Positions 4,444 through 11,382 of a stretch of DNA of 23,840 bases are shown one piece after another. This stretch comes from a virus: positions 1 to 23,840 of IMG/VR virus record IMGVR_UViG_3300037189_003128; one strand, 5' to 3'. Every line of letters starts with the position of its first letter. Position 1 is the stretch's first letter. A program made the position numbers and the translations under genes. The notes under the pieces are model-generated. The model searched no databases and was not told where the DNA came from. It saw only the letters and a list, made by a program, of their open reading frames with translations.

Positions 4444-4780
4444 AACTAAAGAATCTACTTCATATGAAAATTGTATGGAGTTGTTGACTGATGAATATCA
4501 ACCACCAACTCTGAACCGCTTTTTTGGTGATAGTGATGATGAAGATGATGGCGTTGATGTTCAGAATGCGGAATGGCAAAAACATTGGATTGGTATGCCA
4601 GCGTTTGAACAAAACGATAAGAAAACATACAAGACAATCTACCTTCACTTCCGAAATAAAGAAGACTACGAAGCGTTTGCAAAATTGGTGGACCAGAATC
4701 TCACAGAAAAAACAAAGTCAATCTGGTATCCAAAATTGGAAAGAGATGAGAATTCTCTGAAGAGATGGATTGAAGAGTGA
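4430..4780 (+). CDS. Small conserved phage protein, acidic, unknown function
   Basis: This 116-residue protein starts inside the deformylase end after a GAGGA ribosome site. Residues about 30-45 hold an acidic run (GDSDDEDDGVD). The second half has a compact alpha/beta pattern, with WIGMPAF followed by TIYLHFRNKEDYEAFAKLV and then TEKTKSIWYP. From memory, the WxGMPxF...FRNxEDxxxFAxLxxQxxTxKTKSIWYP pattern recurs in small proteins of many phages near DNA-modification, methylase and glycosyltransferase genes; I cannot verify this here and know no function. Its stop overlaps the GTG start of the methyltransferase, so the two are co-translated and probably act together. Confidence 0.75.
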   Translation: MKTSETKESTSYENCMELLTDEYQPPTLNRFFGDSDDEDDGVDVQNAEWQKHWIGMPAFEQNDKKTYKTIYLHFRNKEDYEAFAKLVDQNLTEKTKSIWYPKLERDENSLKRWIEE

Positions 4781-5577
4781 ATTCAATAGACTTTCTCAAA
4801 GAGAAACCTCAAGTATTGTTTGAGTATTTTCTTAAAGATTATGGCAATCTATTTTCAATAGATGCTGAAGAATGTCGAGCAATTCGAAAGACTGATAAAA
4901 TCTTTCAAGAGTTGTCTGCGAAATGGTATGATGACCTAGCAAATACAGATACTGGAAACATCTATGAGGTTTACAATCATGATTACTACTTTATAGATAT
5001 TTTTAATTGCTTTGTAGAATATAGTAGAGATTACATCAAACGAGTTATTAAGTCATCTCATTTTGAAGAACTCAAAACTGCCAAAGTTATCGTTGACATT
5101 GGTTGTGGTATAAGTTATAGTACAAGTTTATTGAAACAGTTATTTCCTGAAGCCAAAGTTTACGCAATCAATCTAAGAGATACTAAACAATGGAAGTTCT
5201 GTGAAATAATGGCAGAAAGAATGAACTTCAATCTAGTTGGCTCAATTACGGAGATTGGCGAATCTGTTGATATATTATTTGCTTCAGAATACTTTGAACA
5301 CATCTATAGTCCGATTGAACATGTTGACGATATTATTGGTACTCTAAAACCGAAACATATGATCATTGCAAACTCATTCAACACATGGGGAATGGGACAC
5401 TTTACACAGTATGATGTTTATGGTACAATGGTGAGTCAAGAAAAAATAAGTAAGATGTTTAATCAGCATTTGAAAAGAAGACACTATGATAACATCAAAT
5501 GTAAAATATGGAATAACAAACCTTTGATATGGAAAAGAAATGACGAATCCGAGACATCCAGTTTATATCGTTTCTAA
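4777..5577 (+). CDS. Class I SAM-dependent methyltransferase-like protein
   Basis: This 266-residue protein begins with GTG in a GTGA overlap with the preceding stop; no suitable ATG lies nearby, so the GTG start is well supported. The core is a class I Rossmann methyltransferase: VIVDIGCGISYST at about residues 104-116 is the SAM-binding motif I, KVYAINL at 127-133 matches the motif II strand, and ASEYFEHIYSPIEHV at 169-183 resembles the motif IV region of small-molecule or sugar methyltransferases. It lacks the DPPY of N6-adenine/N4-cytosine DNA methylases and the PCQ of C5-cytosine methylases, so a DNA base is not the obvious substrate. The N-terminal 90 residues are not recognised. It overlaps the following glycosyltransferase by 38 bases, so a joint role such as methylating a transferred sugar is an inference. 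Confidence 0.75.
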   Translation: MNSIDFLKEKPQVLFEYFLKDYGNLFSIDAEECRAIRKTDKIFQELSAKWYDDLANTDTGNIYEVYNHDYYFIDIFNCFVEYSRDYIKRVIKSSHFEELKTAKVIVDIGCGISYSTSLLKQLFPEAKVYAINLRDTKQWKFCEIMAERMNFNLVGSITEIGESVDILFASEYFEHIYSPIEHVDDIIGTLKPKHMIIANSFNTWGMGHFTQYDVYGTMVSQEKISKMFNQHLKRRHYDNIKCKIWNNKPLIWKRNDESETSSLYRF

Positions 5578-6436
5578 GGGTCGTTCTGACACAATGATTA
5601 CATCAAAGTCATTGTCCAGAATGAAAGTACCTCATTATATTGTGATTGAACCACAAGATGAAGAACCCTATGATAAAGCATTAGATAAATTCAACATCCG
5701 TGATTATGTCACATTGATTGTTGCGCCATTCAGTAATCATGGTGATGGTCCTGGTCGTGCAAGAAACTTTGCATGGGATCATTCTATCTCCATTGGTGCA
5801 GAGAAGCATTGGGTACTTGATGATAATATTTCTGATTTCTACAGACTACACCAAAACTATCGTATTCGTGTAGAGTCTGGTGTTATCTTCAAAGCAGCAG
5901 AAGATTTCATTGACCGATTTGAAAATGTGCCTATCTCTGGCTTTCAGTATCGGTTCTTTATTGCACCCAATCAAAGTTATCCACCCTACGTGAAGAACAC
6001 ACGAATCTATTCCACACTGTTGATAGATAATAATTGTAAACACCGTTGGCGTGGTAGATACAATGAAGATACTGATATCTGTCTTCGTGTTTTGAAAGAT
6101 GGCGATTGCACAATTCAGTTCAATTCATTCTTGCAGGGCAAAGCAGCAACACAAACCGTCAAGGGTGGTAACACTGAAGAATTTTATCACAAAGAAGGTA
6201 TTGAAAAGAATATCTGGATTGATGGTGTAAATGCTGAAGGCACAAGAAACAAATCTGAGATGCTAGTAAGAATGCATCCTGATGTTGCACGAATGGTCTG
6301 GCGATACAAACGCTGGCATCATTATGTTGACTATTCACCATTCAAGAAGAATGAATTGCGTTACAAAAAAGACATCGTTTTACCAAAAGAGCCAAACGAA
6401 TATGGTATGAAACTTGTAACGAATTTCAAAGCTTGA
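5540..6436 (+). CDS. GT-A glycosyltransferase resembling the TET-associated (TAGT) family
   Basis: This 298-residue protein begins PVYIVSKGRSDTMITSKSL, followed by VPHYIVIEPQDEEPY at about 30-44, GDGPGRARNFAWDHS at 68-82 and HWVLDDN at 90-96, with a later GRYNEDTDICLRVL segment. The order 'YIxSKGR...VEPQ...GPGRARN...DDN' matches what I remember of phage TAGT glycosyltransferases, named for linkage to TET/JBP dioxygenases that hypermodify 5-methylcytosine. DD94-95 would be the metal/donor-binding acidic pair. No TET dioxygenase and no C5-cytosine methylase lie in the window, so DNA glycosylation is only a hypothesis; capsule, virion or small-molecule substrates are possible. It starts inside the methyltransferase gene, and its TGA stop sits within the TTGACA of promoter P1. 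Confidence 0.72.
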   Translation: MTNPRHPVYIVSKGRSDTMITSKSLSRMKVPHYIVIEPQDEEPYDKALDKFNIRDYVTLIVAPFSNHGDGPGRARNFAWDHSISIGAEKHWVLDDNISDFYRLHQNYRIRVESGVIFKAAEDFIDRFENVPISGFQYRFFIAPNQSYPPYVKNTRIYSTLLIDNNCKHRWRGRYNEDTDICLRVLKDGDCTIQFNSFLQGKAATQTVKGGNTEEFYHKEGIEKNIWIDGVNAEGTRNKSEMLVRMHPDVARMVWRYKRWHHYVDYSPFKKNELRYKKDIVLPKEPNEYGMKLVTNFKA

Positions 6437-6490: not shown

Positions 6491-6562
6491 ATGTCAACTT
6501 TGCAACAAACTATGGGCTGCTTGACAAAGCCCATTGGCTCATATATAATGATTGTTCAATGA
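6491..6562 (+). CDS. Possible 23-residue leader peptide
   Basis: ATG at 6491 follows GGAG at 6481-6484 with ideal spacing, very like the Hsp20 ribosome site (GGAGAAAAACTATG). The frame reads MSTLQQTMGCLTKPIGSYIM plus three residues and ends in TGA at 6560-6562, 16 bases before the next gene. P1 lies just upstream and P2 lies inside it. It could be a real leader peptide, a decayed gene start duplicated from the following gene, or chance. There is no codon-level evidence beyond the strong ribosome site. Confidence 0.35.
   Translation: MSTLQQTMGCLTKPIGSYIMIVQ
6512..6534. promoter_or_regulatory. Dyad enclosing the P2 -35 box
   Basis: ATGGGCT (6512-6518) and AGCCCAT (6528-6534) are perfect inverted arms around a 9-base centre that contains TTGACA. 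As DNA it could bind a dimeric regulator; as RNA from P1 it would form a hairpin inside the 23-codon ORF. There is no T-tract after it, so it is not a terminator. Confidence 0.5.
6521..6549 (+). promoter_or_regulatory. Perfect-consensus sigma70 promoter P2
   Basis: TTGACA at 6521-6526, a 17-base spacer and TATAAT at 6544-6549, an exact match to the housekeeping consensus. The start near 6556 gives a leader of about 23 bases ending in a GAGGTT ribosome site before the ATG at 6579. It should drive the peptidase/VWA gene strongly and early. Confidence 0.85.
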
Positions 6563-6578
6563 TGATTGAGGTTATCTA

Positions 6579-8864
6579 ATGAGCAACATTCAAAATCAAA
6601 AATCTGGTCTTGCCAAACTGATGGCAACCGAGAATCTCACAGTTCAACATGCCAAAGTACCAACGGCATCGTTTGATCCTAAAAATCGTGTTCTTACTTG
6701 CCCTATCTGGGAACAAATGTCTGGTGATCTTTATGACTTGCTAATGGGTCATGAAGTCGGTCATGCTATTGACACACCTGCCGAAGGTTGGCATGGTGCC
6801 GTTCACGACCGTGGTGCAAACTACAAAGGCTTTTTGAATGTAGTTGAAGATGCACGAATTGAAAAACGACAAAAACGCCGTTACCCTGGTCTACGCCGTT
6901 CATTTACAAACGGCTTCAATGAACTCATGGCTAAAGACTTTTTTGGTCTACGTGGTCGTGTTGTTGATACACTACCATTCATTGATCGTTTGAATATCTA
7001 CACTAAATCAAGTTACTCTTTGCCTGTTGCATTCAATGCAAAAGAACAGGACTTTGTTGACCGTGTTCAGGCTTGTGAATCTTTTGAAGATGCCTTGAAA
7101 TTGACCGATGAGATTTGGGACTATTCAAAAGAAGAACAGTCTCAGACTAACACACCTCAAGATAACTTTGAGTACGGTGATGACGGTGACGAATACGAAA
7201 CCGAATCTGGTTCAAATGAAGGTGATACCGAAACTGATGGTGAAGGTGATGAGCCATCTAAGTCTACGCAAAAAGGCGAAGATGGTGATCAAGAAAAAGA
7301 AACAACCTCAAATTCTGGTAAAGAATCAGATGAAGATGGTAATGAAGATGGTAATGATGAAGATGAAACAAAGAATGATATTAGCCGATTCAAAGAATCA
7401 CAAAGTGTAAAGGAAGATCAAACTCCTGAACCACGGTGTGAGACTGACGAAAACTTCCGTCAGAACGAAAGTAAACTCATTGCAAAACATGCACGTGAGT
7501 ATGTGTATGTAGATATACCAAAACCTAATCTGAAAAAGATTGTCACGCCTGCAAAACGTGTTCAAGAAATTCTTACCAAAGAATTCACTGAACAAACAGC
7601 CGGTTACGAACAAATCGCTAGTAATTTGTATAACGATTTCCGTCGTAAGAATGAACGATTCATTTCATTGTTGGCAAAAGAATTTGAAATGCGTAAGGCT
7701 GCTGATAAGTTTTCAAAAGCTAAAGTGTCATCAACGGGTGATATTGATGTTAGTCGTGTTTTCAAATATCAAATTGATGATAGCATTTTCAAAAAAGTGA
7801 TGCGTGTGCCTAAAGGTAAATCTCACGGTTTGATTCTGTTGCTAGACAAGTCTGGTTCAATGTCGGATAATCTGTCTGCATCATATGAACAGATTCTCAT
7901 TCTGGCTATGTTTTGCCGTAAAGTAAACATACCATTTTCTGCGTATGGTTTCGGTAACGCGGATCACATTCGTGAGAAAGATTTTCCTGAACAAATTGAT
8001 TTGGATCCTACACAAACTTACGGTTGCTTTAGTGAAAATGAACGTGAACTGTGGGTATCGTCGGTGTATTTACGTGAACTGATCAATTCAAAAATGAGTA
8101 ACTCAGATTTTTCAAAAGCTGTTAAGAATATTCTGTGTCTCATGAATGCATGGTCTGCCCGTTATGGTAGCCGTAGTATCTTCTATCGGCCACCTTCAGA
8201 TTCGTTGTCTAACACACCGTTATCTGAGGCAATGATTGCTTGTCAACCATTGATCAACGAATTCAAAACTGTAAACAATCTTGACATTGTAAATCTGTGT
8301 GTTGTACATGACGGTGATGCTGATGAAATTGCTTCGTTTGTAGCGAAAGATGGAACAACTAGCCGAACGTATTTCGGCACAAACTATCAAAATGTTTTTC
8401 TGTGTGACAAGAAAAATAAAATACAACAGGAAGTTTCTGATGGTGGTGATGGTGTGCGAATTGCTATCGGTAACTGGTTGACAAAAACAACTGGTGTAAA
8501 AATCATTGGCTTCTATCTTGCAACAAACTCAGCAATGAGAGGTGCATTACGCCGCCGTCTGTTCAATACTGAACTAGATGAATTACGCAAAGATGAACGT
8601 AAAAATTGGTATCAATTGAAAGATGCATATTCAAAGTACAATAAGATTTTGCGTAAAGAAAAGTTTCTAGAATCAAAAAATCCTGGCTATGAATCATTCT
8701 TTATTTTGCCAGGTGGTGCTGACCTCAATATAGAAGATGATGATTTTGAAGCACCAGAAAAAGTTACTACCGCTTCATTGACAAAAGCTTTTGGTAAGTA
8801 TAACAAAAATCGTCAAGTCAATCGGGTTTTAGTATCACGATTTATTGGTATGATTGCTGCTTGA
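6579..8864 (+). CDS. Metallopeptidase-like/VWA protein (CobT-like)
   Basis: This 761-residue protein has two recognisable parts. Near the N-terminus, HEVGH at residues 58-62 with NVVEDARIEK at 87-96 looks like a gluzincin zinc site (HExxH plus a downstream glutamate). Residues about 190-265 form a highly acidic, low-complexity linker rich in D, E, G, N and S. The C-terminal half starts with LILLLDKSGSMSDN, where DKSGSMS at 422-428 is the MIDAS metal site of a von Willebrand A domain; NTPLSEAM and HDGDADE supply further MIDAS-like residues. Family knowledge: CobT-like VWA proteins act with CobS/MoxR-type AAA+ ATPases, in cobaltochelatase or in protein maturation. The ATPase follows directly. 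No CobN subunit is seen, so cobalt insertion is unlikely to be complete here. Its TGA stop lies inside the P3 -35 box. Confidence 0.85.
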   Translation: MSNIQNQKSGLAKLMATENLTVQHAKVPTASFDPKNRVLTCPIWEQMSGDLYDLLMGHEVGHAIDTPAEGWHGAVHDRGANYKGFLNVVEDARIEKRQKRRYPGLRRSFTNGFNELMAKDFFGLRGRVVDTLPFIDRLNIYTKSSYSLPVAFNAKEQDFVDRVQACESFEDALKLTDEIWDYSKEEQSQTNTPQDNFEYGDDGDEYETESGSNEGDTETDGEGDEPSKSTQKGEDGDQEKETTSNSGKESDEDGNEDGNDEDETKNDISRFKESQSVKEDQTPEPRCETDENFRQNESKLIAKHAREYVYVDIPKPNLKKIVTPAKRVQEILTKEFTEQTAGYEQIASNLYNDFRRKNERFISLLAKEFEMRKAADKFSKAKVSSTGDIDVSRVFKYQIDDSIFKKVMRVPKGKSHGLILLLDKSGSMSDNLSASYEQILILAMFCRKVNIPFSAYGFGNADHIREKDFPEQIDLDPTQTYGCFSENERELWVSSVYLRELINSKMSNSDFSKAVKNILCLMNAWSARYGSRSIFYRPPSDSLSNTPLSEAMIACQPLINEFKTVNNLDIVNLCVVHDGDADEIASFVAKDGTTSRTYFGTNYQNVFLCDKKNKIQQEVSDGGDGVRIAIGNWLTKTTGVKIIGFYLATNSAMRGALRRRLFNTELDELRKDERKNWYQLKDAYSKYNKILRKEKFLESKNPGYESFFILPGGADLNIEDDDFEAPEKVTTASLTKAFGKYNKNRQVNRVLVSRFIGMIAA

Positions 8865-8889
8865 CAAAGTGTGGAATTTTCTTTATAAT
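8861..8889 (+). promoter_or_regulatory. Perfect-consensus sigma70 promoter P3
   Basis: TTGACA at 8861-8866, a 17-base spacer and TATAAT at 8884-8889. The preceding GCTGC and following AAAG match P2, so 14 bases around the -35 are shared (GCTGCTTGACAAAG). The leader ends in an AGGAG ribosome site 8 bases before the ATG at 8922. Confidence 0.87.
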
Positions 8890-8921
8890 GTATTTTCTAC
8901 TGTGAATTAGGAGTTTATATT

Positions 8922-10103
8922 ATGGCAAGTCGATCTGCTAAACGTCAGTTCTTTATTGATGCTCTTATTGCAACTGGCAAATCTGAAGTTACAAAAGTTG
9001 ATGTTGTTGCAATTGCTGAAAAGCTAAGTATTCCCATTCCTCAGTGGTTCGTGAATGATGAATCTAACAAAGTGAAGCGTGGTGTGTATCGTGTTCCCGC
9101 TTCATCCAACGCCGTACCGGCTGCTTCCGTGGCTATCAATATGGCTGCACAAGTGATCCCACTTGCAAAGCCTGAGCCAGTCTCTGGTAATCGTATTGCA
9201 AATGTGACAACTGATCTAGAAGTTACTGATTTGATACCAACTCAGTATTCAAACTATGTTCCTTTTGGCAACTTTGAAGATGTGTTGTCAATTGTGAAAT
9301 CAAATCAGTTCTTCCCAGTGTTTATTACTGGTCAGTCTGGTAACGGTAAAACAATGTCAATTGAACAAGCTTGTGCAAAAGCAAAACGTAAATTCGTTTG
9401 CGTATCAATGACACCAGAAACCGATGAAGGTGATCTTCTTGGTAACTATGTTCTGATCAACGGTCAGATGGAATGGCGTGATGGTCCTGTTACTGTTGCA
9501 GCCCGTCAGGGTGCGGTGTTGTGTATTGATGAGATTGACTACGGCGCACAAAATCTGTCCTGCCTACAGCGTGTCCTTGAAGGTAAACCATTCTTGCTAA
9601 AGAAAAAGAATGAACTGGTTTATCCTGCTCCCGGCTTTACTGTGTTTGCTACTGCTAACACAAAGGGTAAGGGTTCTGAAGATGGTCGCTATATGTTTAC
9701 CAACGTATTGAACGAGGCGTTTCTTGAACGTTTTCCTAATACGATGGAACAAGAATGGCCACCTGTAAGAGTTGAAGAAAAAATTATCAACAAAGAACTT
9801 GATTCTATCAGTCGTTCCGATGAGGTGTTTGCAAAAAATCTTGTGTCTTGGGCGAATGTAATTCGTAATACTTTTGCCGATGGTGGTTGTGATGAAGTTA
9901 TTTCAACACGCCGCTTGGTTCACATTGTTAAGACTTTCGGTATCTACGGTGATAAGAAAAAAGCGATTGAGTATTGCTTGAATCGTTTTGATGTGGATAC
10001 TAAAGCTACCTTCTTTGATTTGTATACTAAGATTGATGCGGGTATTGATCCTACCGAAAAAGTAGAAGTAGAAACTTCTAACCCAGAAGAAATTCCATTC
10101 TAA
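8922..10103 (+). CDS. MoxR/CobS-like AAA+ ATPase
   Basis: This 393-residue protein has an AAA+ core with Walker A GQSGNGKT at 137-144, Walker B VLCIDEID at 199-206, sensor 1 ATANT at 243-247 and a likely arginine finger in LERF at 268-271. The ETDEGDLLGNY and ARQGAVLCIDEID segments are typical of MoxR/CobS ATPases. The first 60 residues look like a small separate domain, followed by an Ala/Pro-rich linker. Family knowledge: MoxR-type rings remodel or load cofactors onto targets together with a VWA partner; phage copies are often annotated cobS. The VWA partner lies directly upstream but each gene has its own promoter, so the two can be expressed at different levels. The target is unknown. Confidence 0.92.
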   Translation: MASRSAKRQFFIDALIATGKSEVTKVDVVAIAEKLSIPIPQWFVNDESNKVKRGVYRVPASSNAVPAASVAINMAAQVIPLAKPEPVSGNRIANVTTDLEVTDLIPTQYSNYVPFGNFEDVLSIVKSNQFFPVFITGQSGNGKTMSIEQACAKAKRKFVCVSMTPETDEGDLLGNYVLINGQMEWRDGPVTVAARQGAVLCIDEIDYGAQNLSCLQRVLEGKPFLLKKKNELVYPAPGFTVFATANTKGKGSEDGRYMFTNVLNEAFLERFPNTMEQEWPPVRVEEKIINKELDSISRSDEVFAKNLVSWANVIRNTFADGGCDEVISTRRLVHIVKTFGIYGDKKKAIEYCLNRFDVDTKATFFDLYTKIDAGIDPTEKVEVETSNPEEIPF

Positions 10104-10125
10104 GGTAGTAATTCACTTTTACCAG

Positions 10126-10155
10126 AGAGAGTGTTGACACACTCTCTTTTTTTTT
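10126..10155 (+). terminator. Intrinsic terminator after the AAA+ gene, overlapping P4
   Basis: AGAGAGTGT (10126-10134) and ACACTCTCT (10139-10147) form a perfect 9-bp stem with a TGAC loop, followed by an uninterrupted T run to 10155. The loop is part of the TTGACA of P4, and the T-tract is the P4 spacer, so one sequence ends the upstream unit and starts the next. Confidence 0.88.
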
Positions 10156-10162
10156 ATATAAT
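10134..10162 (+). promoter_or_regulatory. Perfect-consensus sigma70 promoter P4
   Basis: TTGACA at 10134-10139, a 17-base spacer consisting largely of the terminator T-tract, and TATAAT at 10157-10162. The expected start near 10169-10170 is immediately before the leader pseudoknot. It drives the winged-helix gene. Confidence 0.87.
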
Positions 10163-10235: not shown

Positions 10236-10499
10236 ATGTCTGCTAAACAGAAAATTCTAAACTATCTTTCTAAAGATTCTGGTTACAACACACTCACCGC
10301 GGCACAAATTCGTGCCCGTTTCGGCATCACTAATGTCGGCGCCCGCATTGAAGAACTTCGTTCAGAAGGTCACTGCATCTATACCAACAAGAAAACTCTT
10401 GACAACGGTAAGACAATCACTTACTACCGTCTTGGTAAGCCTAGCCGTGAGATGGTTGCCGCTGCACATGCTGTTTTTGGCGCCGAAGTTTTTGCCTAA
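10236..10499 (+). CDS. Small winged helix-turn-helix protein
   Basis: This 87-residue protein has a winged-helix fold pattern: an initial helix (KQKILNYLSKD), a helix-turn-helix at about 20-46 (LTAAQIRARFGITNVGARIEELRSEG), and a wing at about 47-67 (YTNKKTLDNGKTITYYRLG). The A-x-I-x-x-x-F-G-I...R-I-x-E-L-R-x-E-G arrangement resembles the HTH_39 family of phage HTH proteins as I remember it. A role as DNA-binding regulator is likely, but its sites are unknown; the dyads at P1, P2 and P4 are candidates (inference). It is a monocistronic unit, bounded by P4 with a structured leader and by a strong terminator. Its codon use is somewhat GC-richer than its neighbours' (GCC, CGC, GGC). Confidence 0.82.
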   Translation: MSAKQKILNYLSKDSGYNTLTAAQIRARFGITNVGARIEELRSEGHCIYTNKKTLDNGKTITYYRLGKPSREMVAAAHAVFGAEVFA

Positions 10500-10566: not shown

Positions 10567-11382
10567 ATGCAAATACAAGTCAACCTTGAAGAACTAAGAA
10601 AAAATAAACTGTTTATTGCAACACCGATGTATGGTGGTATGAATCATGGTTTGTACATGAAATCATGTCTTGACCTACAAACAGTTATGATGAAGTATAA
10701 TATTGAAGTCAAATTCTCATTTCTCTTCAATGAATCACTCATCACAAGAGCAAGAAATTATCTAGTAGATGAATTCTTACGCTCTGGATATTCCCATATG
10801 ATGTTCATTGATTCTGATATTCATTTTGATCCAAATGATGTCATTGCACTGATGGCTCTTGATAAAGATGTTATCGGTGGTCCTTATCCGAAAAAATCTA
10901 TCAATTGGGGTAACATTGCTGACACTGCTCGGCGTCATCCAGATTTGAATCCTCGTGAACTTGAAAATCTTGTTGGCGAATATGTGTTCAATGTTGTGAA
11001 GGGTACGCAACAATTTCAAGTATCTGAGCCACTAGAAGTTATGGAGATTGGCACTGGTCATATGATGATCAAGCGCCATGTATTTGAAAAATTGGCAGAA
11101 GCATTTCCAAAGATTCGGTACAAACCAGATCATGTTGGTCAAGCACACTTTGATGGTTCACGATACATTCATGCGTACTTTGACACTGTGATTGATACTG
11201 CTGATAGTTATACTGGTGGTGGTTCAGATCGTTATCTGTCCGAAGATTATATGTTCTGTCAGATGTGGCGTAAGATTGGTGGTCAAGTCTATCTCTGTCC
11301 ATGGATGAAGACTCAACATATCGGTACATATGCATTCACAGGTAATATGCCTGCTGTTGCACAATACACTGGTAAACTATGA
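10567..11382 (+). CDS. GT-A fold glycosyltransferase
   Basis: This 271-residue protein has the phage glycosyltransferase pattern: LFIATPMYGG at about 15-24, SLITRARNYLVDEFL at 57-71, then MMFIDSDIHF at 78-87, where DSD (82-84) is the metal/donor DxD motif, and DVIGGPYPKK at 101-110. Near the end, LSEDYMFCQMWRKIGG supplies the acidic acceptor-site residues, and the C-terminal QHIGTYAFTGN is also typical. Donor and acceptor cannot be read. It begins just after a terminator, has no obvious nearby promoter or strong ribosome site (TTATGGATAAATTATG), and overlaps the next gene by an ATGA-type junction. Confidence 0.85.
   Translation: MQIQVNLEELRKNKLFIATPMYGGMNHGLYMKSCLDLQTVMMKYNIEVKFSFLFNESLITRARNYLVDEFLRSGYSHMMFIDSDIHFDPNDVIALMALDKDVIGGPYPKKSINWGNIADTARRHPDLNPRELENLVGEYVFNVVKGTQQFQVSEPLEVMEIGTGHMMIKRHVFEKLAEAFPKIRYKPDHVGQAHFDGSRYIHAYFDTVIDTADSYTGGGSDRYLSEDYMFCQMWRKIGGQVYLCPWMKTQHIGTYAFTGNMPAVAQYTGKL

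Follow-up and report, generated by a model that had tools for sequence, protein, structure and literature searches.

We analysed a stretch of 23,840 bases, which is the entire IMG/VR record IMGVR_UViG_3300037189_003128 and a fragment of a T4-like phage; below we call it the window. Our subject is a pair of genes in it, the open reading frames ORF A and ORF B, whose frames were confirmed to be open at the coordinates given by an earlier reading of the letters (the sequence-only reading). At roughly even confidence we propose that the two proteins form an early AAA+/VWA zincin machine; its target would be a protein involved in the DNA metabolism of the phage or plasmid. The sequences suggest that the ORF A family keeps a protease site that genuine CobT lacks, and that both genes are promoted early. 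The question matters since cobS (and cobT) of T4-like phages are counted as vitamin-B12 auxiliary metabolic genes in marine virus ecology, cobS serves as a community marker, and the two published readings of the partner gene conflict. The retention of the protease site and the early promoters, together with plasmid pairs that lie beside recombination genes, make the function of this near-universal core pair of marine phages testable by point mutants. The pair has the following parts:

6579 to 8864, plus strand: ORF A, 761 amino acids, with a zincin-like domain, an acidic linker, a helical segment and a VWA domain; PHROG 459 'peptidase'.
6579 to 7148, plus strand: N-terminal zincin/gluzincin-like domain (N-domain), residues 1-190; AlphaFold2 pLDDT 87, pTM 0.83.
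6750 to 6764, plus strand: HEVGH, residues 58-62, with the predicted metal ligands H58 and H62 and the predicted catalytic E59; invariant in the family.
6837 to 6860, plus strand: NVVEDARI, residues 87-94, with E90 as the predicted third metal ligand by sequence conservation.
7152 to 7421, plus strand: acidic linker, residues 192-281, predicted to be disordered (pLDDT <50).
7824 to 8714, plus strand: VWA domain, about residues 416-712 with approximate boundaries, from Foldseek matches to VWA proteins.
7845 to 7859, plus strand: MIDAS DKSGS, residues 423-427, together with T546 and D578, from conservation in 82 sequences.
8922 to 10103, plus strand: ORF B, 393 amino acids, a CobS/NorQ/CbbQ-type AAA+ ATPase; PHROG 249 'porphyrin biosynthesis'.
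9330 to 9353, plus strand: Walker A motif GQSGNGKT, residues 137-144 of ORF B.
9516 to 9536, plus strand: Walker B motif VLCIDEI, residues 199-205 of ORF B.

The sequence-only reading had seen HEVGH, a downstream NVVEDARI and a VWA MIDAS in one polypeptide, and all three indeed lie in ORF A at the residues listed. A protein as large as ORF A would by composition be expected to contain only about 0.009 HExxH motifs. The residues D53, H58, E59, H62, N87, V88, E90, D91, R93 and G104 are invariant in a set of 42 N-domains, which includes three from non-T4 elements. The IMG/VR loci were fetched with motif-based patterns, so that motif invariance there is partly by construction; the fair test is provided by the isolates and by the plasmid and phage relatives that were found without such patterns. 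The isolates DLP_6, Syn33, OC, P-HM2, S-CRM01 and HTVC008M keep both HExxH and N-[VI]-x-E-D. HExxH is kept as well in nine out of nine other members, from the IncC, IncHI, Dyella, Xanthomonas and Azospira plasmids and the Rhizobium, Gordonia, Brevibacterium and Vibrio phages. The Glu-Asp pair is retained in seven of these nine; at the apparently equivalent place the IncHI protein has NLFDDVQM and the Vibrio phage protein NMVVDHNI.

Because the model of full-length ORF A matched mostly VWA proteins, the N-domain was modelled alone. In this model helix 49-65 bears HExxH and a second helix, 80-101, bears the downstream Glu E90, which is the gluzincin pattern. The gluzincin-like character claimed by the sequence-only reading is supported by the conserved ligands and a confident model, while the fold neighbours are zincins found at weak E values of 0.16-3: ArdC, selecase and PprI/IrrE came closest in the PDB, with BlaR1 and the M61 aminopeptidase lower. 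An independent profile search ranked projannalysin first (E=0.09, weak by itself). Against a viral library, the N-domain matched CobT/VWA proteins of many tailed viruses, haloarchaeal ones included. ORF A found no match in Pfam or NCBIfam, phmmer against the PDB returned linker or chance matches only, and a profile from four full-length ORF A sequences found no PDB chain. PHROG 459 was matched over residues 4-760 (E=2.5e-183). Together, the conserved ligands and the confident model support a zincin/gluzincin-like N-domain. In Pseudoalteromonas phage XG4 (L089; the record is labelled unverified) the VWA part lies in ORF 7851-9065 and the HExxH part downstream at about 9347, so that judging from this sequence the two parts may be separable.

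The long acidic linker that had been described is present as well, with 37% Asp plus Glu in residues 190-281 compared with 16% overall. In the VWA domain, D423, S425, S427 and D578 occur in all 82 sequences and T546 in 96%, and NorD of the NorQD complexes is among the best Foldseek matches. The neighbour of ORF A had been called a MoxR/CobS-type AAA+ protein, and rightly so. ORF B carries Walker A and B motifs, scores above the cut-off for Pfam AAA_5 and CbbQ_C, matches the sequences of the solved CobS, NorQ and CbbQ structures, and aligns to PHROG 249 over residues 94-376 (E=9e-99). An AAA_5-class ATPase with a VWA partner that has a full MIDAS is the MoxR/CobS/NorQ-type arrangement. NorQ-NorD, CbbQ-CbbO and RavA-ViaA likewise consist of an AAA+ protein plus a MIDAS-VWA partner, and they activate or insert into metalloenzymes. 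None of the three is known to have a zincin domain.

The sequence-only reading had further assigned the module its own perfect-consensus promoters. This was correct and even understated. Only three sites in the window match the sigma-70 consensus at 12/12, where shuffling expects 0.045, and all of them flank the module:

6521 to 6549, plus strand: TTGACA-17-TATAAT, a perfect sigma-70 promoter preceding ORF A.
8861 to 8889, plus strand: perfect (12/12) sigma-70 promoter preceding ORF B; it overlaps the 3' end of ORF A.
10134 to 10162, plus strand: perfect (12/12) sigma-70 promoter 3' of ORF B, for the next gene (10236-10499); it overlaps a terminator-like hairpin at 10124-10149.

The promoters are conserved in relatives. 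Of 73 relative loci, 43 have a match of at least 11/12 within 150 bases upstream of ORF A (shuffles 1.4%), usually 50-60 bases before its start; for ORF B the figure is 35 of 62 loci (shuffles 0%). In the same test gp47, gp46, def, gp44, gp62, regA and the GT2 gene gave 0-12%, gp45 gave 27% and the small gene 3' of ORF B gave 42% (11/26 at 11/12 or better), the upstream end being the start of the tblastn match for all genes except ORF A, and not a curated start codon. These sequence data support the idea that ORF A and ORF B are separately promoted and made early. The small ORF at 10236-10499 (PHROG 4973), which lies directly 3' of ORF B under its own perfect promoter and is kept in close relatives, may belong to the early module as well.

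The pair itself is already known: it belongs to the core genes of T4-like cyanophages, and its architecture was published in 2021. The view of it as an uncharacterised system that this phage alone possesses is not supported. By tblastn, 463 phage records matched ORF A and 532 matched ORF B; for either gene these include 365 Synechococcus, 61 cyanophage and 24 Prochlorococcus records (450 in total). The genes of the window run gp55, gp47, gp46, def, ORF A, ORF B, gp45, gp44, gp62, regA and hsp20, followed by gp43 and uvsX, which were assigned by sequence and neighbours. The order 55-47-46-A-B-45-44-62-regA is found also in Syn33, P-HM2, HTVC008M and Ochrobactrum phage OC, with small genes interspersed; DLP_6 has 43-uvsX-41-A-B, and in S-CRM01 the pair is oriented opposite to 45/44. 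Among IMG/VR loci with at least 1.5 kilobases of downstream sequence, ORF B follows within 1.6 kilobases of ORF A in 53 of 60, the median distance between the ORF A end and the start of the ORF B match being 129 nucleotides. Genes 46/47 lie upstream in 46 of the 60 loci with at least 3 kilobases on that side, and 45/44 downstream in 24 of 41. Other arrangements were seen in contigs of metagenome-assembled genomes (L100, L107, L108, L105), where ORF B either points away from ORF A or precedes it.

The function of the pair is contested between the published readings. In T4-like jumbo phages, Iyer et al. 2021 (PMC7824862) described MoxR paired with a vWA protein that has a metallopeptidase fused at its N terminus, and they proposed a role in virion assembly. 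Going by that description, the two proteins, the domain order and the adjacency are as in the window; however, the promoters and relatives of the window pair favour an early role. Liu 2021 took the pair for CobST and regarded CobT as 'mistakenly annotated as a peptidase'. In the wider literature, cobS is a cyanophage core gene (PMC3037559) whose function in the infected host is given as unknown (PMC9983427), and cobS/cobT of pelagimyophages were classed as nucleotide-biosynthesis auxiliary metabolic genes (PMC7029224).

Related pairs are present on plasmids and in unrelated elements, too. The plasmid relatives were reached via a Pseudovibrio intermediate; ORF A as a direct query gave no plasmid match. 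In Pseudovibrio the related pair is accompanied by RecT-like and YqaJ-like genes (by inspection of the translations), and on IncC by ssb, bet, a lambda-type exonuclease and DUF3150. The pairs on the IncHI, Dyella and Xanthomonas plasmids lie with DUF3150 and toprim genes, those of Dyella and Xanthomonas also beside a PD-(D/E)XK nuclease, and the pair on the Azospira plasmid with SSB and DUF3150. A Rhizobium phage carries its pair amid ligase, DNA polymerase III, SSB, exonuclease and RecA, and in Gordonia and Brevibacterium phages primase/helicase genes are found within a few kilobases. As in the phage, the conjugative plasmids (L123-L127) hold a CobS-like AAA+ gene and an HExxH-VWA gene in one cluster, but there the two are separated by ssb/bet/exo or other genes, whereas the phage genes are usually adjacent. 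Directly 5' of the HExxH-VWA gene there is a DUF3150 gene in all five of these plasmids, and its product is likely a third component in them; the annotated T4-like loci that were inspected showed no such gene. Overall, the gene context points to DNA replication/recombination at least as much as to counter-defence. This cross-element pattern and the comparison with CobT, which follows, were not found in the literature consulted.

ORF A did not match the CobT models (PF06213, PF11775, NCBIfam) at E values up to 1, and ORF B, whose nearest curated family is CobS, stays below the CobS equivalog cut-off (TIGR01650; 69 bits vs 558.55). Two relatives do pass the Pfam CobT cut-off, namely the mobile-element protein of Pseudovibrio (L120) and that of IncC. 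Compared profile to profile, the phage proteins match the mobile-element proteins (E=6e-13, probability 98%) and these in turn match CobT (E=5.8e-8, probability 95%); in six controls, in which the columns of the combined profile were shuffled, CobT was matched at E values of at least 0.1. The mobile-element bridge is required, as the direct comparison of phage and CobT profiles is weak (probability 26%, E 7e-4). Cobaltochelatase CobS-CobT has the same class of AAA+ protein plus a VWA partner, and the N-domain of CobT is distantly homologous to that of ORF A, but HExxH is kept only in the latter. In 15 genuine CobT proteins 'H[DN]xxxH' or a similar sequence stands in place of HExxH, and VEQARVE or near variants stand where the phage proteins carry VEDARIE. 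The simplest reading of these sequences is that the CobT N-domain would be a degenerate relative.

CobN, the absence of which the sequence-only reading had noted, is not encoded in the window, which says little since the window is a 23.8 kb fragment. It was looked for in relatives instead: 16 complete records of phages and plasmids and five long viral contigs all lack CobN (PF02514). The Pseudovibrio genome has a genuine CobT and a CobN-family gene, both on contigs other than that of the mobile-element copy. In a tree of the ATPases, genuine CobS forms a tight clade (100/100) and the T4 'CobS' proteins another (93/95), and the two are not sisters; with long branches between them and no outgroup, we did not draw the direction of descent from this tree. 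As a more tentative idea, somewhat short of an even chance, the pair could be an old AAA+/VWA zincin protease machine of tailed phages and large conjugative elements that serves the DNA replication/recombination stage, with CobST as a cellular offshoot in which CobT lost the peptidase site. If this is true, the often-cited assignment of phage cobS/cobT to the vitamin-B12 auxiliary metabolic genes would be mistaken.

For the early machine itself we envisage the following. By analogy to NorQD, CobST and RavA-ViaA, we infer that ORF B would form an ATP-driven ring, on which ORF A would dock via its MIDAS-bearing VWA domain. The zincin-like metallopeptidase domain would be carried on the long flexible acidic tether. 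Host RNA polymerase would transcribe both genes early from the strong sigma-70 promoters, and during the DNA replication/recombination phase the ORF B motor would unfold or strip a protein that the zincin domain cleaves. The domain assignments of ORF A and ORF B are well supported by their sequences. That ORF A binds metal and is catalytic, and that its substrate is one of the DNA-metabolism proteins, are unproven predictions; the substrate is a guess.

Several points weigh against this proposal. In T4-like phages the pair is located between 46/47 and 45/44/62, but such proximity to replication genes is weak evidence because the clusters are conserved as blocks. The neighbours in unrelated elements were taken from a direct reading of the loci, without a comparison to random genes. 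The fold matches of the modelled N-domain to peptidases are not significant by themselves, and the promoters are the sole ground from which early timing was inferred. Furthermore, seven IMG/VR loci (L050, L051, L052, L054, L056, L059, L074) have ORF A without ORF B within 1.6 kilobases; they are fragments, so ORF B may be elsewhere, and probably form one related group. In those inspected, genes for ribonucleotide reductase or RNase H-like proteins are found close to ORF A.

Four other explanations have to be considered. Host takeover or counter-defence, in which the machine would degrade host defence or regulatory proteins at entry, fits the early promoters and the occurrence in both phages and conjugative elements; the closest PDB fold of the N-domain, ArdC, is an antirestriction protein, and zincin domains recur among early effectors (PMC5512222). 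We nevertheless consider it unlikely, given that the pair is near-universal at a fixed place in T4-like cyanophages, unlike the patchy counter-defence genes, and that the ArdC match is weak. The PADLOC defence models gave chance-level ATPase matches only with the window proteins (E at least 0.01) and no defence system. The cobaltochelatase explanation, put forward by Liu 2021 and the cyanophage literature, holds that CobST borrows the host CobN and raises cobalamin for nucleotide synthesis, the 'peptidase' being a misannotation. It draws on a real distant homology, visible in the mobile-element relatives and their profile link to CobT, and on CobS as the family nearest to ORF B. It is made quite improbable by the model scores of the two window proteins, by an HExxH that is kept throughout the phage family but absent from genuine CobT, and by the missing CobN in complete relatives. 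Moreover, plasmids from E. coli, Klebsiella and Salmonella carry related pairs, and no CobN-family gene is present in the E. coli genome used as a control.

We see just as small a chance for virion assembly or processing, that is, a late chaperone-peptidase for structural proteins, even though Iyer et al. proposed it for the same architecture by analogy with the Acidianus two-tailed virus. The conserved sigma-70 promoters are of the early type and thereby argue against a late role, and the late T4-type TATAAATA was found upstream of ORF A in only one scanned locus. The pair accompanies replication and not structural genes in T4-like phages, and conjugative plasmids, on which related pairs are found, make no virions. 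Finally, the zincin domain might merely bind substrate or metal, so that the pair would be a NorQD-like chaperone. The CobT N-domain does serve an AAA+/VWA machine without HExxH, but all predicted catalytic residues of the ORF A family are kept across highly divergent members, and we regard a non-catalytic remodeller as very unlikely.

Two further groups of genes flank the pair in the window. Upstream, a gene of the TET-associated-glycosyltransferase family (5540-6436; PF20691, E=9e-43) adjoins a methyltransferase-like ORF without a PHROG match (4777-5577), and the two could have a role in the glycosylation of DNA or of another target. Downstream, the PHROG 1574 gene at 10567-11382 is kept just 3' of ORF B in many T4-like loci and is glycosyltransferase-like according to the annotation of phage OC.

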